From positions 124,001-188,000 of the forward strand of contig NZ_JACHIF010000007.1 of the NCBI RefSeq assembly GCF_014203045.1: 64,000 nucleotides of DNA. The letters run 5' to 3'. This document shows, piece by piece, positions 20,761 to 31,062 of the stretch; position 1 is the stretch's first letter; each line of letters starts with the position of its first letter. The position numbers and the translations under genes are program-made. The notes below the pieces were generated by a model that did not search any database, was not told the DNA's origin, and saw nothing but the letters and a program-made list of their open reading frames with translations. Source of the DNA: Prosthecobacter dejongeii. GTDB taxonomy: Bacteria; Verrucomicrobiota; Verrucomicrobiia; Verrucomicrobiales; Verrucomicrobiaceae.

Positions 20761-21062
20761 ATGTCCGATGATACGCCTCCGCTGCCCCATTCCATTGCTC
20801 GAATAGACCTGCTTAAGGCCATTGTCGTGGGCCTCGGTATCCAGTTATTTGTTTTTCTCCTCAGCTTAGTCATGCTGAATGGGGGTTACTTTACCCAGTG
20901 TGTCGTCCTTTCCATGGCGGCTTGGTGGTCCATGCTCTTCATCATGGCCCTGGCACGGCGCAGATCACGCTTGGGGACCTCATTGCCATTCGCTACGGTT
21001 TTTTAGTGATTGTAATCCTCGTCGTGCTTGGCCGCGTGCTTCAGAGAAATCTCCTGTCATAG
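20761..21062 (+). pseudogene. Small membrane protein gene with apparent frameshift
   Basis: From ATG 20761 an 81-residue frame shows two hydrophobic helices (IVVGLGIQLFVFLLSLVML and VVLSMAAWWSMLFIMALA), then loses protein-like character (RRRSRLGTSLPFATVF) and stops at 21006. In the -1 frame from about 20958 the sequence continues as AQITLGDLIAIRYGFLVIV, then another hydrophobic helix, ending in TAG at 21060-21062. Joined, this gives a roughly 100-residue membrane protein with a third helix. The likely cause is a one-base loss or two-base gain near 20953-20961, either a real mutation, a sequencing error or programmed frameshifting. Function is unknown. The end overlaps the convergent TPR gene by six bases. 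Confidence 0.55.
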
Positions 21063-21800
21063 CCCCGCGAGCGTCGCCCGTCCGCGTCGCTTGGTTTCTG
21101 GATCATCCTTCTCCCGGTTGGGCATCGCCAGGCCCTTGTTGATGGCTGCCTTGGCCTCCTCCGTCTTGCCCATCTGGGCATAGGTGCGGCCTAACTCAAT
21201 GTGGTGTAAAAGGCGATCTGGTTTCAGGGCGATGGCCTTTTTGAAATACGTCACAGCCTCCTCGTTCGTCGCCGCCGGCAGCTCGCCATACACCAGTTGC
21301 GCAATGCCCCGTGTCAGGCTGCCCATCCCCGCCAGAGCCTGGTGCCAGCGCCCCAGCAGATGCCAGGCATAGTCATCCTTCGGGTTCAATTTTGCCGCTT
21401 TCTCCGCAGATTCTTTGATCTTCTTGGACGCCTCAATCTTTCCCCGGTTCCCCAGCAGAGGCGTCATCTTGCCATGCACGATGGCGATGGAAAGGTGCGC
21501 ATCACTGCTCCTGGGGTCGGCCTTCACGGCCCGTTCTGCATAGGCCAGCGCCTTCTGGCCCTCTGTCAGTTTTTCGGTATTCGTCTTCAGTCCATCCATG
21601 CGGAATACGTGCTGCCGGGCGATCTTTACAAGCAGCGCCGCATCGTTCGGGTTCTGCTTTTCCGCAGGTAGATAGTATTTCAACGCTTCGTCAGGCTTGA
21701 ATTGCTGATCGTAGATGTCGCCTTGGCGGATGAGCTCGTTCGCCGGTCCGTTGATGGCCAGAATCAAAACAGTAAGGCTCAGAATGAAGAGGCGTTTCAT
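21057..21800 (-). CDS. Exported TPR protein
   Basis: A 247-residue protein with signal peptide MKRLFILSLTVLILAINGPA starting at ATG 21800. Tetratricopeptide-type helices fill the rest (PDEALKYYLPAEKQNPNDAALLVKIA, KALAYAERAVKADPRSSDAHLSIAI, EAVTYFKKAIALKPDRLLHHIELGRTYAQMGK). The spacing resembles the RMD1/FAM82-like TPR group. It starts only eight bases after the upstream Cfa-like gene stops, so it is the last member of the lipid-modification operon running from 27875. A protein-protein or lipid-transfer scaffold role is a guess from context. Confidence 0.8.
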   Translation of the reverse strand: MKRLFILSLTVLILAINGPANELIRQGDIYDQQFKPDEALKYYLPAEKQNPNDAALLVKIARQHVFRMDGLKTNTEKLTEGQKALAYAERAVKADPRSSDAHLSIAIVHGKMTPLLGNRGKIEASKKIKESAEKAAKLNPKDDYAWHLLGRWHQALAGMGSLTRGIAQLVYGELPAATNEEAVTYFKKAIALKPDRLLHHIELGRTYAQMGKTEEAKAAINKGLAMPNREKDDPETKRRGRATLAGL

Positions 21801-21808
21801 AAAGTTGG

Positions 21809-22849
21809 TCAGTTGGGTTTGATGAATCGGTAATGGGAGACAATCCATTCCTCGCCGTCGCGGTATCCCCATAGCTCGGCACAGGCCATGTAGAAAATGC
21901 GCCAGTAAGCCCACCATTTCACCGCTTGCTCTTTGCCATAAGTGTCTGCAAACAGAGGCATGATTTCCGCCTTGTTCGCGTCCATCTTGGATAGCCAGGC
22001 TTCTGAAGTCTTGCTGTAGTGCATGCCGCTCACGCACCAGTGATCCTCGATTTTGAGATCATCCTGAAAGTACAGCAACAGATCGTCAGAGGGCATCTGG
22101 CCACCCGTGAAAAAGTATTTCGCCATCCAATCTTCGTCGCTGGTGACTTCGTAATGGTAGGCATACTCACGATGTGTGAAGATATGGACGAAGAGTTTAC
22201 CTCCTGGTTTTAACCAAGTCGAAACACGGCGCAGAAGTTCTTGATAGTTCTTCATGTGCTCGAACATTTCCACCGAGACGCAGCGATCAAAGATGCCGTC
22301 TCCCACGCCTTCAAAATGGATCATGTTGGCCGTGATGATGGTCAGGTTATGAAGTCCCCGTCTTTGGGCTTCCGCATCAATGAATTCTTTTTGGGTGCGT
22401 GAATTCGAGACGCTGGTGACTTGAGCGTTCGGGTAGTGTTCCGCCATCCAAAGAGAGAGAGAGCCCCATCCACAACCTAGTTCAAGGATGCGTTGACCAT
22501 CTTTCAATTCTGCCCGCTCGCAGGTCATCTTCAGCATGATCGCCTCAGATTCATCAAAGGTGGTGCTGGGTTCTGGCCAGTAGCCGCTGCTGTATTTGAG
22601 GTGCTTTCCGAGGCACAGTTGGTAAAACCGAGTGGGGACCTCGTAGTGTTGTTCATTGGCCTCTGCCGTGGCGATGGCTACCGGACTCTTTTTTAATCCT
22701 TCAATGTGTTGCAGTAAGGATGCTTTTTGTGCCTCAATGTTAGGCTGCTTTTGCTTACGCAAAGTATTCGACAGACGCTGGCGAATGCCGAAGCGGATGG
22801 CTGCATCTGGAAGAATGTCTTTGGCGAGTAGATCGTTAAGATTGAGCAT
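21809..22849 (-). CDS. Cfa-like SAM-dependent methyltransferase (second copy)
   Basis: A 346-residue class I methyltransferase related to cyclopropane fatty acid synthase but shorter at the N-terminus. The SAM site is [21 protein letters not shown] near residue 120, and [15 protein letters not shown] follows near residue 194. [27 protein letters not shown] near residue 68 matches the acyl-chain side of Cfa-type enzymes. It likely methylates an unsaturated acyl chain on a phospholipid, but could make a methylated, cyclopropane or other product. It lies 45 bases after the DUF1295 gene, and a small hairpin (CAGGG/CCCTG) sits in the gap. It differs clearly from the other Cfa at 24518. Confidence 0.85.
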
Positions 22850-22894
22850 GACTTGAGGGACGATGAAAAATGCGTTCAGGGTTGAGCCCTGGAT

Positions 22895-23668
22895 TCACTT
22901 CTTGGGGAACCAAGGTATGAAAGCGCTGGTGCGGCGCTGGTAGTCCCGATAAACATCGCCGCGCTTTTCGACGGAAAGTTTCTCGGTGAGAGGGATGCCA
23001 GTGACGTTTAACAGAAAGTGTAACATAGCCAACGGAGCTACAATCGCGGTCCAGCCCCAAGGTGCCGGTAAGGCCATCAGAAACAGTCCCCACCAGAGCA
23101 GCGATTGGAAAAAATAATTTGGGTGGCGACTGTAATTCCAAAGCCCTTCTTCACAGATGATTTTGGGATCTGAATTGGTTCTTTTGAAGTGAGCGAGCTG
23201 TGCATCTGAAATTGCCTCTCCAATTAAGGAGATAAACCAAAGTCCTAAACCCAAGTATTCGAGGATATGAAAAGTCTGTGAAGGCTGCTGGGAAGTATGG
23301 TGCACTGGCAGCATCAACAGCCAAACAAGCAATGCCTGAACGAGAAAAAACCAAAGAAAAGAAAGAGGTAAATTGGATTTCCACTTTTCTCTAAGCACAG
23401 CATAACGCACATCTTCTTTGGGGTGATGACTGGCCACTCGCTTCCAGAGGTGAATTCCCAAACGCAAACTCCAGGCTGATACCAAAACGGCAATCGCAAA
23501 GCGACGAGGCAACCATCCATTGCCACTGACCGCGTACCAAATAGCCAAGGGGGTGAAGGCCAAAGACCAGGTAACATCTACAAAAGAATAGTTGTCCAGC
23601 TTCTTACTTAACCACCAAGTGAATAAAAATAAAACCAATAGAATACAGCCACCGATTGCGAGGATCAT
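22895..23668 (-). CDS. DUF1295/steroid 5-alpha-reductase-like membrane protein
   Basis: A 257-residue polytopic membrane protein with six or seven helices, starting ATG 23668. The family signature lies near the C-terminus: LWNYSRHPNYFFQSLLWWGLFLMALP, followed by VTGIPLTEKLSVEKRGDVYRDYQRRTSAFIPWFPKK. This is the DUF1295 (COG3752) pattern related to 5-alpha-reductases and isoprenylcysteine methyltransferases. In lipid loci such proteins are candidate NAD(P)H-dependent reductases of an acyl double bond. The start codon overlaps the stop of DUF2062 by four bases (ATGA), indicating translational coupling. Confidence 0.88.
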   Translation of the reverse strand: MILAIGGCILLVLFLFTWWLSKKLDNYSFVDVTWSLAFTPLAIWYAVSGNGWLPRRFAIAVLVSAWSLRLGIHLWKRVASHHPKEDVRYAVLREKWKSNLPLSFLWFFLVQALLVWLLMLPVHHTSQQPSQTFHILEYLGLGLWFISLIGEAISDAQLAHFKRTNSDPKIICEEGLWNYSRHPNYFFQSLLWWGLFLMALPAPWGWTAIVAPLAMLHFLLNVTGIPLTEKLSVEKRGDVYRDYQRRTSAFIPWFPKK

Positions 23669-24156
23669 GATGAAGTGCGGGTAGAGGTGCTATGCGCCAA
23701 ACGCTCAATGAGCGGTTTGGTGCTAAAATAGAGAATTGCTAAAATCACTGGGGCGAATAGGCACCACACAACGACTCCGTATAATGCTGTCATTCCATAG
23801 TCTTTGAAGAAAGGACCCGGCTCTGCGAAAAATCGCTCAATCATACTAGGGATGTGAATGCTCACATGAGGTGCATTGAACAACCATTCTCCTGCGCGAT
23901 AAAACGCCAAAAGTAGCGTCCATTGAAGAGGGTAAGTTAACGTTTTGAAGATCTGTAGAATAGGCTGGTTAAGCTTGAGCGGAATGCCCACCAGCAGAGT
24001 GAGTAGCGTGTTAGAACCAATGATGGGGAAAATCCCGAGAGCGACTCCAAAAGCGATGGCTTGTGCAATTTTGGCGGGCTGAGTTCCCTGCGTCAGTTGT
24101 TGCTTGATAGGCGATAGGACCCATCTATGCCACGCAGATGGTTTGGGTTCATTCAT
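23665..24156 (-). CDS. DUF2062 membrane protein
   Basis: A 163-residue protein of the DUF2062 family. The core is GTQPAKIAQAIAFGVALGIFPIIGSNTLLTLLVG near residue 25, followed by LKLNQPILQIFKTLTYPLQWTLLLAFYRAGEW and a last helix GVVVWCLFAPVILAILYFS. Three to four transmembrane segments are expected. The function is unknown; family members often lie beside lipid or glycosyltransferase genes. It shares ATGA overlaps with both neighbours (24153-24156 and 23665-23668), so expression should be coupled. Confidence 0.85.
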   Translation of the reverse strand: MNEPKPSAWHRWVLSPIKQQLTQGTQPAKIAQAIAFGVALGIFPIIGSNTLLTLLVGIPLKLNQPILQIFKTLTYPLQWTLLLAFYRAGEWLFNAPHVSIHIPSMIERFFAEPGPFFKDYGMTALYGVVVWCLFAPVILAILYFSTKPLIERLAHSTSTRTSS

Positions 24157-24488
24157 GCCATCCTCCTCAAAAGCACGTCTTCGATTTTAGCAGTCACAGG
24201 TACTCGGAAGAGTTGAATGAGTGCGTAAAGAGCCATTGCAATATTGCCTAACAACAAGATGGCGATGAGCCAACCAGCACGGCTAATCCCTGAAACTTCT
24301 TTATAAACGACCCAGCAGTAAAAAGTAAGAAAGCCCCAATACGCATCAAACAAGGTCGCAATCCACCAAGGGTGAGTCCAAGTCTCATACGGGATTTTCC
24401 ACAGGGGCAACTGTTTGCTTGCCCAGGTGGTGACCGCCAGCATGGAAATCAAAACAACGATGAAGAAGATGCGAAGGGGCAAGATCAT
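24153..24488 (-). CDS. DUF1475 membrane protein
   Basis: A 111-residue protein with three hydrophobic helices. The DUF1475 landmark THPWWIATLFDAYWGFLTFYCWV lies in the middle, preceded by MLAVTTWAS and followed by AGWLIAILLLGNIAMALYALIQLF. ATG 24488 is used because the family N-terminus begins there; a TTG start at 24524 overlapping the cfa stop would add 12 residues. Members of this family occur in small lipid loci of proteobacteria and Verrucomicrobiota, but no function is assigned. Confidence 0.8.
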   Translation of the reverse strand: MILPLRIFFIVVLISMLAVTTWASKQLPLWKIPYETWTHPWWIATLFDAYWGFLTFYCWVVYKEVSGISRAGWLIAILLLGNIAMALYALIQLFRVPVTAKIEDVLLRRMA

Positions 24489-24517
24489 AAAAAATGAGTG
24501 AGTGAATTCGACGTGAA

Positions 24518-25807
24518 TCACCAAGTGCGATGCAAGGCTCCATTGTTAGGCCGAGTGTAAACTGCCTGAACCACACTGATGTTACGCGTGGCAAATGCAG
24601 CCTCGCAGTATTGCAGGTAAAAATTCCATTTTCGGATGAATGTCTCATCGAATCCAAGATCCTTCACTTCTTGCACTCGCGCGTTAAATCGTTCGAACCA
24701 AAGTCGCAGAGTTTTAGCATAACCAGCGCCTAAATCTTCGAGTCCATGCAAGAACATGTCCCCCGTTTTATTGATGGCCTGATTCACGCGAGCCATGCTG
24801 AGTAACAGCGAGCCTGGAAAAATGTGTTTTTGAATCCAGTCCACCCCTTGAACCAGGTTTTTGTAACGACAGTCAGGAACGGTGATGACCTGGAAAGCGA
24901 GAAGGCCATGAGGTTTGAGGACCTCATGACATTTGGCGAAATATCCATCAACATAAGCTTCCCCCACAGCTTCTAACATTTCGATGGACGCGATTTTATC
25001 GAATTGTCCTGTGACTAAACGATAGTCCTGAAGACGAATTTCGATTAGATGTTCTAAACCTTCTTTTCTAACTCTCTCGGTCGCATATTTGTGCTGTTCT
25101 TGAGATATGGTGACGGCGGTCACTCGGCAGCCATATTGGCGAGCCGCATGGGTACAAAAGCCTCCCCAGCCACAACCGATTTCAAGAACGTGATCGGTAT
25201 CTTTCAATTCTAATTTCTGGCAAAGCGCATCGTATTTACTGAATTGAGCCTCTTCGAGAGTTTGCTCAGGAAATTCAAAACGCGCAGCCGAATACGTCAT
25301 CGTCTTATCCAACCAGAGAGAATAAAAATCATTACCAAGATCATAGTGCTCAGCAATGTTTCTCCGGCTGATTTGCAGGCTGTTAGGTCGGAGTCGATGC
25401 AAGAATCGGTTGTAGATTTTTAACAGATTCATGCATTTCAACTTGGTGGATGATGCCGTGCTCCCTTGCGTGTGATGGATGTTCTGGATGAACCAAGAGA
25501 TCACACCGGCAATGTCTTCCGTATCCCAGTCTCCGTGAACGTAGGATTCTCCAAAACCAATGTTTCCATAAAGGGCGCAGTGTCGAAAGAACTCCAAGTT
25601 GTGAATCCGCATTTCAAGACTCGGCGAAGTTTCCTGACTTCCCAGACGATATTCGCGGCCATCAGGTAAAATCATTCGCAGTGCCCCAGAAGGAAACTTT
25701 TTGAGTGTGTGCATGACCAGCCGCTCATAGAAACCCACGCGATCGGCTAAACTGAGATCAGGGGAGACAACTTCATCTTCTTCGAGGCTGAGCGTGGTGG
25801 AGTTCAT
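24518..25807 (-). CDS. cfa: Cyclopropane-fatty-acyl-phospholipid synthase family enzyme
   Basis: A 429-residue SAM-dependent enzyme with the full Cfa layout. An N-terminal lipid-binding domain spans about 35-135 (LRMILPDGREYRLG, YGNIGFGESYVHGDWDTEDI). The catalytic domain has AEHYDLGNDFYSLWLDKTMTYSAARF near residue 165, SAM motif VLEIGCGWGGFCTHAA near residue 206 and SIEMLEAVGEAYVDGYF near residue 270. QKHIFPGSLLLS and a late FIRKWNFYLQYCEAAFATRNISVVQAVYTRP stretch complete the match. It transfers a methylene or methyl group to a cis double bond in phospholipid acyl chains. ATG overlaps the DUF1365 stop (ATGA). Confidence 0.93.
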   Translation of the reverse strand: MNSTTLSLEEDEVVSPDLSLADRVGFYERLVMHTLKKFPSGALRMILPDGREYRLGSQETSPSLEMRIHNLEFFRHCALYGNIGFGESYVHGDWDTEDIAGVISWFIQNIHHTQGSTASSTKLKCMNLLKIYNRFLHRLRPNSLQISRRNIAEHYDLGNDFYSLWLDKTMTYSAARFEFPEQTLEEAQFSKYDALCQKLELKDTDHVLEIGCGWGGFCTHAARQYGCRVTAVTISQEQHKYATERVRKEGLEHLIEIRLQDYRLVTGQFDKIASIEMLEAVGEAYVDGYFAKCHEVLKPHGLLAFQVITVPDCRYKNLVQGVDWIQKHIFPGSLLLSMARVNQAINKTGDMFLHGLEDLGAGYAKTLRLWFERFNARVQEVKDLGFDETFIRKWNFYLQYCEAAFATRNISVVQAVYTRPNNGALHRTW

Positions 25808-26601
25808 GGCTTAATAGGAGAAATGGAGTGATGCGGGTTGTGGACACCCCGTTGCAATTCTGGATGAGCGGCTTTTCGATAAACGGTTAGACCTTTCATC
25901 CAGAGGCGCAAAGCATGCCAGTGAATGAGAAAAATCACGCGAAGAGTGAGCAATGGATATTTAATGGCACAAACAAGAAGCGCCGAATCTGTGAGATTAC
26001 GACGCTTGCCAGTGAGGCTGGTCAACATCACCCGTTCATCTCCTTGACGGTCATCAATGTGTATTTCGAGGTGATCCGCAGGGAGACGCAGCTTGAAGTC
26101 GAAATTCAGTTCCAAGTCAAAAAATGGGGAAACGTAAAAATGCTTGGGTGTGATGAGTCTGAAGGTCCCTCCGTCTTGTTCCGTGAGCACATAGGGCTTT
26201 TGTTCATGAAACGTGTTTGTCACTTCAGCCACAGCACAAAGGGGCTTTTCATGGACATCAAAACAGTAATAAAAACAAACTGGATTGAAAATGTAACCGA
26301 GAATTCGAGGGAAGGTAAGCAGTCGTATTTTTGCGATGCTGGATGTTTCCACGCCGGATTCTTTGAGTGTCTGCAAGAGACTCTCTTTAGTCTGTAAACT
26401 GTTCTTCGAAATATGATCAGTATCAAAGAAGGAGAATAGAGACCACTGGTTGTGTTTAAAGAAGCGTAGCCGGCTCGAAAGGAGGTCCAACTCGTCCAGG
26501 TCTAACCACAAATAAAAGAGGCGGTAGCTAAACCGATGCACTTTCGGACTGAGCCGATGATGCATCACATTGCATTCGTAGATGGCTGATGGCGAATTCA
26601 C
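25804..26601 (-). CDS. DUF1365 family protein
   Basis: A 265-residue protein of the DUF1365 (COG3496) family. Landmarks are SAIYECNVMHHRLSPKVHRFSYRLFYLWLDLDELD at the start, RIRLLTFPRILGYIFNPVCFYYCFD near residue 95, and VTNTFHEQKPYVL and FYVSPFFDLELNFDFKL after it. The start is placed at GTG 26601 because it forms a GTGA overlap with the upstream stop and gives the family N-terminus; the frame is open to 26631. The family nearly always sits beside the FAD oxidoreductase and Cfa seen here. Its chemistry is unknown. Confidence 0.9.
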   Translation of the reverse strand: MNSPSAIYECNVMHHRLSPKVHRFSYRLFYLWLDLDELDLLSSRLRFFKHNQWSLFSFFDTDHISKNSLQTKESLLQTLKESGVETSSIAKIRLLTFPRILGYIFNPVCFYYCFDVHEKPLCAVAEVTNTFHEQKPYVLTEQDGGTFRLITPKHFYVSPFFDLELNFDFKLRLPADHLEIHIDDRQGDERVMLTSLTGKRRNLTDSALLVCAIKYPLLTLRVIFLIHWHALRLWMKGLTVYRKAAHPELQRGVHNPHHSISPIKP

Positions 26602-27875
26602 CACGGATCCTCCCCGAGCAGATCTCGGCATAGATTGACCGCAGACATAAAACCATCCTCATGGAAGCCATAGCGAAACCAAGCCCCAGCATAATAAGTG
26701 GTCTGATCTGGTGAGATTCGATTCAAATCAGGGAGGCGTTTTTGGGCAACCGTCGCTTCGACGTCAAACAAAGGATGCTCATAAGAAATCCGTCGAAGAA
26801 CCTTAGCAGGATCAATCGCTTCAGCGCCATTGATGCTAACGAAATAATTCGTTTTTTTGGAGACTCCTTGAAGGAGATTCATCCAATAGTGAGTGCTGGG
26901 TTGGATGATCCCTGATTGGTCAAATTCGATATGATAATTCCATGCAGCCCAGCATTTTTTTGTTCGAGGCATGAACTGATCATCCGTATGCAAAGTGGCG
27001 AGATTGGCCTGATATTTGAAGCGTGGAAGCAGTTCTTGCTCTAAAGGTGTGGGGTCAGCCAGCATCTTCAAAGAAGTGGGCGCATGAGTCGCTAAGATAA
27101 CTTTATCGTAAATTTCAGGCGCATGATCTTTGGCATAAAGAATGACTTTGCCGTTTTTTCGCTCAATTCGTTCGACTGGGGTTTTAAGACGGATGCGATC
27201 TTGAAACGGGGGGATGAGTTTGCGAACATACTGGCGAGATCCATCCACCACGGTCCACCACGGGTGGCGCGTTTCCATGCCTAAAAATCCATGGTTAAAC
27301 CAAAAGTGCATCAGCGTGCGAGCTGGGAACTCCAACATCAAATCTGGCGGTGTGGACCACACTGCACTGCCCATAGGAATCACATAAAAGTCCAAGAAAT
27401 CTTGTCCGTAGCCTCTGGCTGCCACATACTCACGCAGAGTCATATGTTCAAACCGGGGATCATTCATCGCTGCCACGGTCTCTTCATTGAAGCGTTTGAT
27501 TTTAAGAAGGAACTTCCAAAAACGTGGGCTGAGAAGGTTGCGTCGTTGTCCAAAAATGGTGTCCAAATTCTTGCCATTGTATTCGTAACCGGTGGGCAAA
27601 TGACGCAGACTAAAGGACATGTCTGTGCGTTTGGTCTCCACGCCTAGCTCTTTAAACAAACGGCAGAGCAGGGGGTAGGTTTGATGATTGAAGACCATAA
27701 AACCCGTATCAATCGGTAATTCCTGCCCGTCTTCGGTTACCGTAACGGTATTGGTGTGCCCACCAACATAATCTGCAGCTTCATAGATCGTCAGATCATA
27801 CCGGGTGTGCAAAAAGTGAGCACAACCCAGCCCTGAAATACCGGATCCGATGATGGCGAGACGTGGGAGAGACAT
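26598..27875 (-). CDS. FAD-dependent oxidoreductase of Cfa-type lipid locus
   Basis: A 425-residue flavoprotein of the amine-oxidase/desaturase type (COG2907-like). The dinucleotide site is LAIIGSGISGLGCAHFLHTRY at residue 5, followed by ADYVGGHTNTVTVTEDGQELPIDTGFMVFN. A late YYAGAWFRYGFHEDGFMSAVNLCRDLLGEDPW closes the FAD fold. It probably oxidises or reduces an acyl intermediate formed with Cfa and DUF1365. It is the first gene of an eight-gene operon. ATG 27875 is preferred because homology begins there; ATG 27908 adds eleven residues and cannot be excluded. It diverges from the gene at 28036. Confidence 0.9.
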   Translation of the reverse strand: MSLPRLAIIGSGISGLGCAHFLHTRYDLTIYEAADYVGGHTNTVTVTEDGQELPIDTGFMVFNHQTYPLLCRLFKELGVETKRTDMSFSLRHLPTGYEYNGKNLDTIFGQRRNLLSPRFWKFLLKIKRFNEETVAAMNDPRFEHMTLREYVAARGYGQDFLDFYVIPMGSAVWSTPPDLMLEFPARTLMHFWFNHGFLGMETRHPWWTVVDGSRQYVRKLIPPFQDRIRLKTPVERIERKNGKVILYAKDHAPEIYDKVILATHAPTSLKMLADPTPLEQELLPRFKYQANLATLHTDDQFMPRTKKCWAAWNYHIEFDQSGIIQPSTHYWMNLLQGVSKKTNYFVSINGAEAIDPAKVLRRISYEHPLFDVEATVAQKRLPDLNRISPDQTTYYAGAWFRYGFHEDGFMSAVNLCRDLLGEDPW

Positions 27876-28035
27876 TTTGTCGAAGATGCTTTTGTCTAAG
27901 TTCTTCATTTCTTCGACTGAGACCGCTTGGCGGATTCATCTCGTTTGGTTCACCCGCGATAAAAGTACCTGTTCCTGTGATCGCCTGGGGAGAGGGTTGA
28001 CTCGCGGAAGCGTTTGTTCAGGGGTATTTCTCGTT

Positions 28036-31000
28036 ATGAAGCAACTTCTCTTTTTCACTTTGAGCTTCGCTGGATTTGTTTTGGCTGCGCCTCCACCCGC
28101 CAATAACATCAAGTCCAAGACCACTCATGCCGAAGCCTACGGTCCTACTCAAAATGCCGTGACGGTGGATCCTGCCAAAGATTTACCGCGTTACCCAGCC
28201 GTAGAACCCAAGGGTGCGCGTGAAACGTGGCAGGTAAAAAAGGGATTTGACCTGGAACTGGCTGCCCACGAACCGCTCGTTCGAGATCCCATTGCCGTTT
28301 GTTTTGATGAACGTGGACGAATGTTTGTGTGCGAAATGATCGATTACTCCGAGATGCGCGACGTCACCCCCCATCTCGGGCGCGTTTCTATGCTGGAGGA
28401 CAAAGATGGCGATGGCTTCTTTGAAACCAGTCAAGTCTTTGCCGATAACTTGCCCTGGCCCACGGGCGTTATCTGGGCGAACGGCGGCCTCTATGTTGGG
28501 GCCACGCCGGACATCTGGCGCTTCGAGGACAAGGATGGCGATGGCAAAGCCGAGGTCCGCGAAAAGGCCTTCACTGGTTTTGGCACCGGCCTGAAAATCC
28601 TCAATGTCCAGGGCCTGATGAACAGCTTTCAGTGGGGCCAGGATAACCGCGTCCACATCCTCGCCGGAGGCGGAAATCGGGGCATTGTCACCTGCCTCAA
28701 ACGACCCGACCTGCCTGGTATCGAGATCGGTGGTAAGGACTTCTGGTTTGATCCGCTGACTCATGAGTTCGGTCTTGAGGGCGGCGGTGCCCAGTATGGC
28801 ATGAGCTTTGACAACTACGGTCGCAAATTCGGCTGCTCGAATTCAGACCATCTCCAGTACTGGGTCTATGACGGCCGTTATGCTTCCCGGAATCCACTTT
28901 ACTCCATGCCCGCCGCGCGCAAAAGCATCGCCGTGGATGGCGGCGCGGCCGAGGTCTTCCGCCTCAGCCCGGATGAGCCTTGGCGCATCATCCGCACCCG
29001 CTGGCGCATCGCTGGGGTCGTTAAAGGCTCGGTCGAAGGTGGGGGCCGAGTCAGTGGTTACTTTACGGGCGCTACTGGCACCACCCTTTACCGCGGTGAT
29101 GCCTATGGTCCGGAGTTTATAAACAACAGCTTCAGCGGCGATGCTGGCGGCCAGCTCATCCATCGCAAGCAGATCCGTTATGCCGACAATGGCATTGATC
29201 TTCTGGGGGAACGACCCGCCGATGAACACGGCTACGAATTCGCTGCCAGCAAGGACACCTGGGTTCGTGTGGTCAATTTTGCCAATGCTCCCGATGGCCA
29301 CCTGTACGTCTGTGACATGTATCGAGAAGTCATCGAGCATCCCTGGAGTGTGCCCGATGAAATCAAAAAACATCTTGATCTCAATAGCGGCAGTGATCGT
29401 GGTCGCATCTGGAGAATAACCAAAAGTGGCGAAACGAAAGCTGCCTCCCGTCGCACTCGTCCCGCCTTGGACAAAGCCAGCCTCGAAGATCTGGTGGCCG
29501 CTCTCGCCCATCCAAATGGCTGGCACCGCGATACCGCCGCCCGGCTCCTCTATGAGCGTCAGGACAAGGCCGCCGTGGCTCTTCTCGAAAAAGACTTCGC
29601 AGATCTCAAGAATCCTCTCGCTGTCATCCATCGCCTCAATGTCCTCCAGGGTCTCAAGTCCCTCAGCCCAGATGTCCTCATCATCGCTTTGCAAAACGAA
29701 GATGCCCATGTCCGCGAGCACGCCATCTTCCTGGCCGAGCCCCTTCTTCAGGCTGCATCATCCCCAGAGGCCCTTTGGCAGAAGCTGCTTACCTTGACGG
29801 CAGATCCGAGTTCCCGTGTCCGGTTCCAGCTCGCCCTCACCCTCGGCCAAGTTTCTCATCCTGGGCAAGCTCTGGCTCTCGCCTCCATTGCTCCTAGCGA
29901 AGACTGGCTCCGTCATGCCCTCCTTTCCGCCCCGCCGGAACAGGCCTTCGCGGTCTATCAGACCCGCTCCTCAGGCAAGACGGCGGCCGACGAAGCCCTA
30001 TCTCTCGGCCTCATTGAAACCATCGCCGCCCGCAACAAGGCGGCAGAAGTAACGGCCCTAATTCAGTCTCTCGGGACCTCGCCATCCCCCAAAACCATCC
30101 GTGCTCTGGCCGAAGGTCTTCGCCGGTCCGGTACAACCCTTGAGGCCGTGGATAAAGAGAAAAAACTCACCCCCGCTTTTGCCACAGCTACCGAAACCCT
30201 GGCCAATCTGAAAGCTTCCGACAAAGACCGCCTTGCCGCCATGGAGCTGGTGGCCCTTTCCCGCCCGGCCTCCGTCATCCCTAGCTTACAGATCTGCTTG
30301 GCCGAAGGTCAATCGGAAGCCCTGCAGGCTGCCGCCATCCGTCACCTCGCTACCTTTAGCCAGCCTAAGGTCACTCAGGCACTCATCACCTCCTGGCCTC
30401 ACCTCGCCCCTCAGGCTCGCACCGCCGCCCTGGCAGCCCTCGTTTCCCGTGATGATCGCGCCACGGCTCTGCTGACGGCCCTGGGCAAAACCGAAGGTGC
30501 CCCCACAGCGGCAGATCTCTCCGCATCCCAGGTCCAGGACCTCGCGAAGCATAAAAACGCCCAAGTCGCCGCTCTCGCCCGCACTACTCTCGCCGCCGTC
30601 ATTCCTCCATCGCGTGAGGAAGTGGTGAAAAAATTTCAGACGGCTCTCTCCCTCAAAGGAGACGCCACCGCAGGCAGTGCCGTTTTCATGTCCCGCTGTC
30701 TCGCCTGCCACGTGGCCAACGGGCAGGGGATCGAAGTAGGCCCCAACTTCACCACCGTGAAGACCCGTGGCAAAGACGGCCTCCTCACTGCCATAGTCGA
30801 GCCGCATAAAGAAGTCGCCTCCCAATACATCGCCTACACCGTCAATACCAAGGACGGCCAGACCCTCAGCGGCATCATCGCCAAGGACGACGCCAGCAGC
30901 ATGACGCTCAAAATGATGGGCGGAGCCGAAATCACTGTGCAACGTTCCAACATCCTCGGCAGCTCCTCCTCCGGCCAAAGCCTCATGCCAGAAGGACTGG

Positions 31001-31062
31001 AGCAGGGGATGACCGAGCAGGACATGGCCGATCTCATCAGCTTCATCGAGGCCGTTGAATAG
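28036..31062 (+). CDS. Propeller-HEAT-cytochrome c dehydrogenase-like protein
   Basis: A 1008-residue exported protein with signal peptide MKQLLFFTLSFAGFVLAAP from ATG 28036. An N-terminal six-bladed propeller of the PVC membrane-bound dehydrogenase type spans about 50-470 and carries two DKDGDG calcium-like loops near residues 123 and 170. A HEAT-like helical repeat region spans about 495-870 (ALQNEDAHVREHAIFLAEPLL and similar). The C-terminal cytochrome c domain has C888-L-A-C891-H892 and a later LMPEGLEQGMTEQDMADLISFI. It is likely a periplasmic sugar or alcohol dehydrogenase passing electrons to its own heme; the substrate is unknown. It is GC-richer than the lipid operon upstream. Confidence 0.9.
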   Translation: MKQLLFFTLSFAGFVLAAPPPANNIKSKTTHAEAYGPTQNAVTVDPAKDLPRYPAVEPKGARETWQVKKGFDLELAAHEPLVRDPIAVCFDERGRMFVCEMIDYSEMRDVTPHLGRVSMLEDKDGDGFFETSQVFADNLPWPTGVIWANGGLYVGATPDIWRFEDKDGDGKAEVREKAFTGFGTGLKILNVQGLMNSFQWGQDNRVHILAGGGNRGIVTCLKRPDLPGIEIGGKDFWFDPLTHEFGLEGGGAQYGMSFDNYGRKFGCSNSDHLQYWVYDGRYASRNPLYSMPAARKSIAVDGGAAEVFRLSPDEPWRIIRTRWRIAGVVKGSVEGGGRVSGYFTGATGTTLYRGDAYGPEFINNSFSGDAGGQLIHRKQIRYADNGIDLLGERPADEHGYEFAASKDTWVRVVNFANAPDGHLYVCDMYREVIEHPWSVPDEIKKHLDLNSGSDRGRIWRITKSGETKAASRRTRPALDKASLEDLVAALAHPNGWHRDTAARLLYERQDKAAVALLEKDFADLKNPLAVIHRLNVLQGLKSLSPDVLIIALQNEDAHVREHAIFLAEPLLQAASSPEALWQKLLTLTADPSSRVRFQLALTLGQVSHPGQALALASIAPSEDWLRHALLSAPPEQAFAVYQTRSSGKTAADEALSLGLIETIAARNKAAEVTALIQSLGTSPSPKTIRALAEGLRRSGTTLEAVDKEKKLTPAFATATETLANLKASDKDRLAAMELVALSRPASVIPSLQICLAEGQSEALQAAAIRHLATFSQPKVTQALITSWPHLAPQARTAALAALVSRDDRATALLTALGKTEGAPTAADLSASQVQDLAKHKNAQVAALARTTLAAVIPPSREEVVKKFQTALSLKGDATAGSAVFMSRCLACHVANGQGIEVGPNFTTVKTRGKDGLLTAIVEPHKEVASQYIAYTVNTKDGQTLSGIIAKDDASSMTLKMMGGAEITVQRSNILGSSSSGQSLMPEGLEQGMTEQDMADLISFIEAVE

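Follow-up and report, generated by a model that had tools for sequence, protein, structure and literature searches.

Organization of the operon

The 64,000-nucleotide stretch of Prosthecobacter dejongeii DNA analysed here (contig NZ_JACHIF010000007.1, positions 124,001 to 188,000; referred to as the window, with coordinates counted from its first letter) carries an operon of eight minus-strand genes, g1 to g8, at positions 21057-27875, whose products appear to include all the known enzymes of furan fatty acid biosynthesis, as described in Rhodobacter and Rhodopseudomonas, together with a DUF1295 partner that accompanies them in several bacterial phyla. In the open reading frame (ORF) listing of the window all eight frames were open. 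The first three genes encode an FAD-dependent oxidoreductase of the amine-oxidase type that resembles the acyl-chain desaturase UfaD (g1, 26598-27875, 425 aa), a DUF1365 protein that resembles the furan-forming oxygenase UfaO (g2, 25804-26601, 265 aa) and an S-adenosylmethionine (SAM)-dependent methyltransferase of the cyclopropane fatty acid (CFA) synthase family that resembles UfaM (g3, 24518-25807, 429 aa). They are followed by a small membrane protein with a half-length DUF1475 (g4, 24153-24488, 111 aa), a DUF2062 membrane protein (g5, 23665-24156, 163 aa), a helical DUF1295 membrane protein, proposed here to be an NADPH-dependent reductase of acyl-chain C=C bonds (g6, 22895-23668, 257 aa), a second SAM methyltransferase, of the coclaurine N-methyltransferase (CNMT) type and similar to FufM (g7, 21809-22849, 346 aa), and a tetratricopeptide repeat (TPR) protein with a signal-like N-terminus (g8, 21057-21800, 247 aa). 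The products of g1 to g7 scored above the respective Pfam cut-offs: Amino_oxidase 84.5 bits, DUF1365 260, CMAS 283.6, DUF1475 39.1, DUF2062 48.7, DUF1295 216.2 and CMAS 141.7.

The genes are tightly packed. A GTGA at 26598-26601 joins g1 to g2, and ATGA overlaps lie at 25804-25807, 24153-24156 and 23665-23668, while the g6/g7 and g7/g8 gaps are 45 and 8 nucleotides (nt). A further GTGA occurs at the g3/g4 junction (24518-24521), but the g4 start at ATG 24488 is better supported than the GTGA-linked start, since it gives a protein of 111 aa, like a relative of the same family (L032). The preferred starts of the other genes are ATG 27875 for g1, GTG 26601 for g2 and, probably, ATG 21800 for g8. 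The initial annotation had described an eight-gene operon of these families with four ATGA or GTGA overlaps; the ORFs and the Pfam assignments agreed with it, and the four overlaps were exact. The G+C content of the operon was 48.7%, compared to 53.3% for the window. A sigma-70 promoter or a terminator could not be placed in the sequence, as three promoter-like and four terminator-like sites were found where shuffled sequences gave means of 7.0 and 8.2.

The genome (6.0 Mb in 22 contigs) has one DUF1365, one DUF1475 and one DUF1295 match, and at an E value of 1e-10 g3 and g7 were its only CFA-like genes. Four matches to fatty acid desaturase families were also present, which makes a supply of unsaturated substrate plausible.

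The probable furan fatty acid core

The R. sphaeroides pathway consists of the SAM-dependent methylase UfaM (RSP2144), the fatty-acyl desaturase UfaD (RSP1091) and UfaO (RSP1090), which belongs to DUF1365; the R. palustris counterparts are RPA2571 (UfaD), RPA2570 (UfaO) and RPA2569 (UfaM) (PMC7380195). The genes g1, g2 and g3 form a contiguous UfaD-UfaO-UfaM block, in the same order as RPA2571-2570-2569 judged by locus number (PMC7380195).

The g1 product belongs to the Pfam families Amino_oxidase and NAD_binding_8, and in a search of solved structures its closest relative was the amine oxidase LkcE (100 bits). This matches UfaD, which we take to be an FAD protein of the amine-oxidase type. 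The DUF1365 score of g2 is far above the family cut-off of 25 bits, which places g2 in the family of UfaO. Among solved structures g2 had no credible relative, the sole match being a phage capsid protein with an E value of 0.066. Its AlphaFold2 (AF2) model (pLDDT 93.7) gave weak matches to lipid-binding and nitrobindin-type barrels, with the OlmO spirocyclase (Z 6.6) and proteins of the fatty-acid-binding type (Z 6.5) among the best, and Foldseek returned no match at E ≤ 0.001 for the g2 or the g6 model. A barrel-type fold for g2 is thus a hint. In five relatives (L034, L038, L039, L045 and L046) the UfaO and UfaM types were fused in one reading frame.

The g3 protein scored 279 bits against the NCBI CFA synthase model, under the model cut-off of 400. 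In all 90 aligned g3-type sequences (defined as at least 280 bits by phmmer in the phylum of P. dejongeii or at least 400 bits by profile at other loci), the active-site His of E. coli CFA synthase, a bicarbonate ligand, was replaced by Gln and a Gly by Glu, while the Cys of the E. coli enzyme was retained in 17 of the 90. From the sequence, the loss of the His would fit methylation without ring closure, and a principal role of g3 in making cyclopropanes was rejected. The broader proposition, in which cyclopropane fatty acids or another of the usual CFA products would come from the operon and the neighbouring genes would be unrelated, can draw on the match of both g3 and g7 to CMAS. Besides the substitutions and the score of g3, however, the frequent neighbours DUF1365 and the FAD gene are not needed by a CFA synthase alone, and g7 is closer to N-methyltransferases than to CFA synthases, so that this proposition is very improbable.

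The families and their order thus matched UfaD, UfaO and UfaM. The initial annotation had noted that an FAD oxidoreductase-DUF1365-Cfa core recurs in photo-oxidative-stress and modified-fatty-acid loci of other bacteria, the furan fatty acid genes of Rhodobacter among them, and it was right that this core is the one of the furan fatty acid pathway. Its further suggestion of an undescribed lipid-modification pathway held in part: the locus is very probably a lipid-modification operon, but its core has already been described (PMC7380195).

The second methyltransferase

The initial annotation had called g7 a divergent second Cfa. The CMAS match supports the family, but the protein is of the CNMT type: its best matches among solved structures were a coclaurine N-methyltransferase (6GKV, 294 bits) and a pavine N-methyltransferase (265 bits), the N-methyltransferase matches spanned 294 to 223 bits, and CFA synthases reached 110 bits or less. 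The identity of g7 and g3 was 29% in an alignment. We take the Arabidopsis protein LIME1 to be of the coclaurine N-methyltransferase kind, and g7 belongs with it, separate from UfaM.

A step for such an enzyme is known. FufM (RPA0924) of R. palustris converts the monomethyl furan fatty acid 9M5 to the dimethyl form 9D5 and is 26% identical to UfaM (PMC7380195); it is also 37.87% identical to Arabidopsis AT4G33110/LIME1, or AtFUFM1 (PMC10940516). Taken together, the CNMT-type matches, the identity of FufM to LIME1 and the identities within the two methyltransferase pairs (26% for FufM and UfaM, 29% for g7 and g3) make a FufM-like function likely for g7, judged from sequence.

The DUF1295 protein

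The second-best Pfam family of g6, after DUF1295, was Steroid_dh (34.5 bits), followed by minor matches to PEMT (26.2 bits) and ICMT (17.5 bits). Its nearest titled relatives, among the matches listed, were from Prosthecobacter metagenome-assembled genomes (MAGs; 73 and 76% identity). The AF2 model (pLDDT 96.1) was most similar to delta(14)-sterol reductase (4QUV; Z 14.8, 3.8 Å over 235 residues) and to the steroid 5-alpha-reductase PbSRD5A (Z 14.0 over 201 residues), followed by SRD5A2 (Z 12.9) and by ICMT, which shares the same wider fold (Z 11.6-11.7); for helical proteins, Z values up to about 13 can reflect merely a common arrangement of helices. The best Foldseek match was weak, with an E value of 0.051. 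The predicted fold is nearest to that of the sterol and steroid C=C reductases. Since delta(14)-sterol reductase has a conjugated diene as its substrate, the preferred, model-based proposal for g6 is that it would use NADPH to reduce a methyl-alkene or diene chain. The model also matched chain G of the Arabidopsis Ycf2-FtsHi motor complex (8xku; Z 11.2, 16% identity).

DUF1295 could instead be a SAM-dependent membrane methyltransferase of the ICMT/PEMT type rather than a reductase. The minor Pfam matches point in this direction, as do the Z values of ICMT and a sequence and profile search of the Protein Data Bank (PDB), in which SRD5A2 (E 0.011) and the SAM-dependent ICMT (E 0.014) were level. 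The Steroid_dh score is higher, however, and the best Z values belong to the sterol and steroid reductases, so that a methyltransferase is regarded as rather doubtful.

No place for DUF1295 in the furan fatty acid pathway was found in the open-access literature: of the 14 papers that mention DUF1295, none concerned furan fatty acids by title or start of the abstract, PMC4067076 names it in a single table row, and COG names led to one paper, on another subject by its title. Ten proteins encoded beside DUF1295 at loci lacking pathway genes (L110, L136, L149, L153 and L157) gave no clue to a substrate; they belonged to ABC transporter, hydrolase, peptidase, NamZ, RmlD-like and similar families. 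At one of these loci (L110, 8099-10717, plus strand) DUF1295 forms the C-terminal part of an 872-aa frame, the rest of which matched nothing in Pfam at E 1e-5, so that the frame may be a fusion or over-long.

Accessory genes and flanking regions

The match of g4 covers positions 124-231 of the 236 in DUF1475; the two open-access papers found to mention this family were, by title, both on plant transcriptomics. The g8 protein, with a hydrophobic, signal-like N-terminus from ATG 21800, scored 47.3 bits against TPR/RMD1-3 (cut-off 26.7), measured on the longer frame 21057-22037, with a generic TPR model close behind (45.8 bits). Its best natural match among solved structures was the TPR domain of RMDN3/PTPIP51 (7CC7, 50 bits), preceded by an engineered TPR protein (64 bits). 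In vitro, the RMDN3/PTPIP51 TPR domain binds phospholipid and can pass it between membranes or carriers as a transfer protein does (PMC9239997); a role of g8 as a lipid binder would, by analogy, be a guess.

Beyond g8 lies a plus-strand gene for a synthase with HMGL and LeuA-dimer domains. Beyond g1, a large divergent gene (27850-31062, plus strand) encodes a protein with DUF7133, HEAT and cytochrome c regions, of a kind typical of bacteria of the PVC group; translation of this gene probably begins at the signal-like MKQLLFF, downstream of the ATG given in the ORF list.

Gene neighbourhoods

The neighbourhood of DUF1295 was surveyed at 80 loci, the best of at least 591 profile matches in the genome collection. 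The set is biased toward the query, since the alignment was built from genomes carrying the pathway and from plasmids, and 73 of the 80 titles were marked MAG. The CNMT-type gene was present at 60 loci, always on the same strand and in 59 of the 60 within 300 nt of DUF1295; two CNMT-type fragments at contig ends (L101 and L158) are not included in the 60. UfaM was present at 54 loci, DUF1365 at 52 and the FAD gene at 49, these three occurred together at 49, and all four genes were found at 45. DUF1475 (28 loci), DUF2062 (24) and the TPR gene (10) were less common and represent a narrower extension of the operon than DUF1295. Six of the seven loci without MAG in the title carried the three core genes and the CNMT-type gene. 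The titles of the pathway-bearing loci included Verrucomicrobiota, Bacteroidetes, Acidobacteria, Gemmatimonadota, Planctomycetota and cyanobacterial/Melainabacteria MAGs, as well as proteobacteria such as Achromobacter, Pseudoxanthomonas and Chiayiivirga.

The most frequent order, at 15 of the 80 loci, was UfaD-UfaO-UfaM-DUF1295-CNMT. The cultured verrucomicrobium Chthoniobacter flavus Ellin428 (L119) has UfaD-UfaO-UfaM-DUF2062-DUF1295-CNMT-TPR. The identical eight-gene order occurred at six of the 80 loci and in three (L036, L040 and L043) of the 31 DUF1365-centred stretches from the phylum sample, and the prediction that the order is conserved outside this strain was borne out.

At 16 of the 80 loci there was no core or CNMT-type gene over threshold, two of them being the loci with fragments at contig ends. 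Three of the other 14 retained DUF1475 and DUF2062, and seven of the 14 genomes had DUF1365 elsewhere. In genomes where the genes are split, DUF1295 adjoined either the CNMT-type gene (L062-L068) or UfaM (L071-L075). In four stretches (L052, L054, L055 and L056) the CNMT-type gene lay directly before the FAD and DUF1365 genes and UfaM was absent, and in the same genomes UfaM was found elsewhere, beside DUF1295 (L071-L074), so that the two methyltransferases had swapped neighbours.

Eight of 66 plasmid records with DUF1295 were also examined, the selection not being random. A plasmid of Acinetobacter sp. WY4 had the order desaturase-FAD-DUF1365-Cfa-DUF1295-methyltransferase with a photolyase nearby; in plasmids of Rhizobium tropici, Rhizobium johnstonii, Shinella and Phyllobacterium, pathway genes and a ChrR-sigma pair lay close to DUF1295; the Cupriavidus, Legionella lytica and Caballeronia records showed further variants. 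Genes for lipocalin, chalcone-isomerase-family, DUF2878, DUF2177 and photolyase proteins recurred in part near the loci of Acinetobacter sp. WY4 (L082), Cupriavidus (L083) and Rhizobium (L084-L085), and could be additional components of a lipid response to oxidative stress.

Co-occurrence across genomes

Among 145 genomes of the same phylum, DUF1365 was present in 32 and a UfaM-like gene in exactly the same 32. All 29 genomes with a strong DUF1295 match and all 25 with a CNMT-type gene were among these 32, with none of either in the other 113, and the 11 genomes with DUF1475 also fell within the 32. Strong DUF1295 was defined as at least 140 bits (29 of 33 matching genomes; the four omitted scored 23-30 bits and lacked DUF1365), CNMT-type as at least 346 bits (25 of 38, the rest being CFA-like plus a fragment in G121) and UfaM-like as at least 297 bits (32 of 38; G127, omitted at 245 bits, lacked DUF1365). 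G121 was counted for DUF1295 though its gene is in two pieces with a stop, and a DUF1475 match under the family cut-off (G102) was included in the 11.

In 200 Pseudomonadota genomes, DUF1365 was found in 52, including a match of 26.8 bits (G284), and strong DUF1295 in 17, of which 15 had DUF1365. The threshold was at least 174 bits (17 of 70 matching genomes), the next genome (G283, 104 bits) having DUF1365. The CNMT-type gene, at an E value of 1e-40 or better, occurred in 13 genomes, 12 with DUF1365 and 12 with strong DUF1295. Within the 52 genomes with DUF1365, strong DUF1295 was present in all 12 that had the CNMT-type gene versus three of the 40 that did not. These counts changed little when the centre genome, picked for having DUF1295, was dropped.

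Proposed pathway

The reading that we consider probable is that the enzymes of the operon form furan fatty acids within the membrane phospholipids, most likely as far as the dimethyl form, with DUF1295 as a proposed side-branch or clean-up reductase. The reactions of UfaM, UfaD, UfaO and FufM are known in Rhodobacter and Rhodopseudomonas, and by analogy the same chemistry would operate here. The UfaM-like g3 would methylate an unsaturated acyl chain in place, in the phospholipid; the UfaD-like g1 would desaturate the product to a conjugated methyl-diene; the UfaO-like g2 would add oxygen from O2 and close the furan; and the FufM-like g7 would add the second methyl group. By calculation, the balance diene (C19H34O2) + O2 = furan (C19H32O3) + H2O calls for no reductant; PMC7380195 describes the reductant of UfaO as unknown, and none had to be added to the enzyme in vitro. 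With NADPH, g6 may reduce an acyl double bond left by a methyltransferase, as a side branch or a clean-up reaction, and g4, g5 and g8 could have accessory roles in the membrane or after export, with g8, the TPR protein, perhaps binding lipid. The roles of these last four proteins are ones that we infer.

Several observations weigh against this reading: 1) the orthology of g1-g3 and g7 to the characterised enzymes is what we infer from family, gene order and published identity figures; 2) in R. sphaeroides, RPA2569-2571 are enough for the production of 9M5 and fufM is enough for that of 9D5 (PMC7380195), so that DUF1295 need not be supplied for either product in that host; 3) in the PDB search SRD5A2 and ICMT were level as matches of g6; 4) the genome counts of both samples take each genome singly, uncorrected for kinship; 5) seven of the 14 core-less genomes, all MAGs, had no DUF1365 match at all, two of the 17 Pseudomonadota genomes with strong DUF1295 lacked DUF1365, and DUF1295, although tied to the methyltransferases, is thus not exclusive to the pathway; 6) one Pseudomonadota genome with a CNMT-type gene (G196) had neither DUF1365 nor strong DUF1295; 7) in two stretches from split genomes (L069 and L076) DUF1295 stood alone; and 8) the curated ChrR model was over its cut-off in none of the 145 phylum genomes, with 14 sub-threshold matches. 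The best ChrR match in the P. dejongeii genome scored 43.9 bits against a cut-off of 124.5 and covered only positions 97-204 of 216.

The control by sigmaE and ChrR is a regulatory hallmark of the furan fatty acid pathway, not a part of its chemistry (PMC6852236). With none of the 145 sampled genomes reaching the model, the circuit known from Rhodobacter probably does not operate here in that form, and ChrR-linked control of the Rhodobacter kind was rejected for this set of genomes. The ChrR link of the initial annotation consequently failed here, though ChrR adjoins the same genes in the Hyphomicrobiales plasmids.

DUF1295 and the CNMT-type methyltransferase might alternatively form, in place of the dimethyl-furan step, a separate branch, in which methylation of a mid-chain alkene followed by reduction gives saturated, mid-chain methyl-branched acyl chains, following the logic of the actinobacterial methylase and reductase pairs. 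Consistent with this idea, DUF1295 in Pseudomonadota tracks the CNMT-type gene (12 of 13) more than the core (15 of 52), lies within 300 nt of that gene at nearly every locus where both occur, stands beside UfaM instead in some split genomes, and has a predicted fold nearest to C=C reductases. However, FufM, the nearest tested enzyme known to us, methylates the furan fatty acid 9M5 and not detectably 18:1 (PMC7380195), and the CNMT-type gene is nearly confined to genomes with DUF1365 (25 of 25 and 12 of 13), where a furan-independent branch predicts otherwise. A separate branch is therefore considered unlikely, and the locus is best seen as an extended version of the furan fatty acid operon rather than a wholly undescribed pathway.

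What is new is above all the pairing of DUF1295 with the methylase, then the extension by DUF1475, DUF2062 and TPR genes. More tentatively, DUF1295 and the FufM-type methylase may be a conserved two-gene module, a methylase with an NADPH-dependent reductase of acyl-chain alkenes that has the sterol-reductase fold, constituting an unrecognised branch of the furan pathway in several bacterial phyla and in green algae, with DUF1475 as a further member; the green-algal reach is suggested by the content of the SAK1 regulon (PMC4067076).

Furan fatty acids occur in membrane lipids and are associated with protection against oxidation driven by light. The locus suggests that non-photosynthetic phyla make furan lipids, and it brings a probable four-step route to the dimethyl furan into one operon, outside the phototrophs where the route was worked out. 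DUF1295 becomes a specific and widespread candidate for a pathway step that is unassigned in the cited literature, and the operon provides a lead for the unassigned eukaryotic DUF1295 and DUF1475 proteins. A furan closure by g2 that needs no reductant is a possibility raised by the reaction balance and the barrel-like model.

Comparison with known systems

The operon has in common with the UfaM-UfaD-UfaO pathway an FAD oxidoreductase, judged by family and place, a DUF1365 protein and a CFA-type methylase, all contiguous and in the R. palustris order (PMC7380195). It differs in that these genes stand in one operon with FufM-type, DUF1295, DUF1475, DUF2062 and TPR genes, in a genome without a curated ChrR. 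Like FufM and LIME1, g7 is a SAM methyltransferase related to but distinct from UfaM (PMC7380195, PMC10940516). In R. palustris, however, fufM (RPA0924) is numbered far from RPA2569-2571 (PMC7380195), whereas here the corresponding gene is in the same operon and adjoins DUF1295. The strains of PMC7380195 include a deletion of RPA0923, the locus number next to that of fufM.

The g6 model shares its fold with delta(14)-sterol reductase and steroid 5-alpha-reductase (4QUV, 7C83 and 7BW1) at 14% identity, a likeness of predicted structure. A similar gene content is found in Chlamydomonas, where the SAK1-dependent singlet-oxygen genes include CFA1, CFA2, DUF1365 and DUF1295, CFA2 being listed in another table as CPLD27, a coclaurine N-methyltransferase (PMC4067076). 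Two CFA-type genes, DUF1365 and DUF1295 are thus induced together in the alga as they are encoded together here, but in the tables of that report the algal genes have separate locus names and form no operon, and DUF1475 does not appear in the text consulted (PMC4067076).

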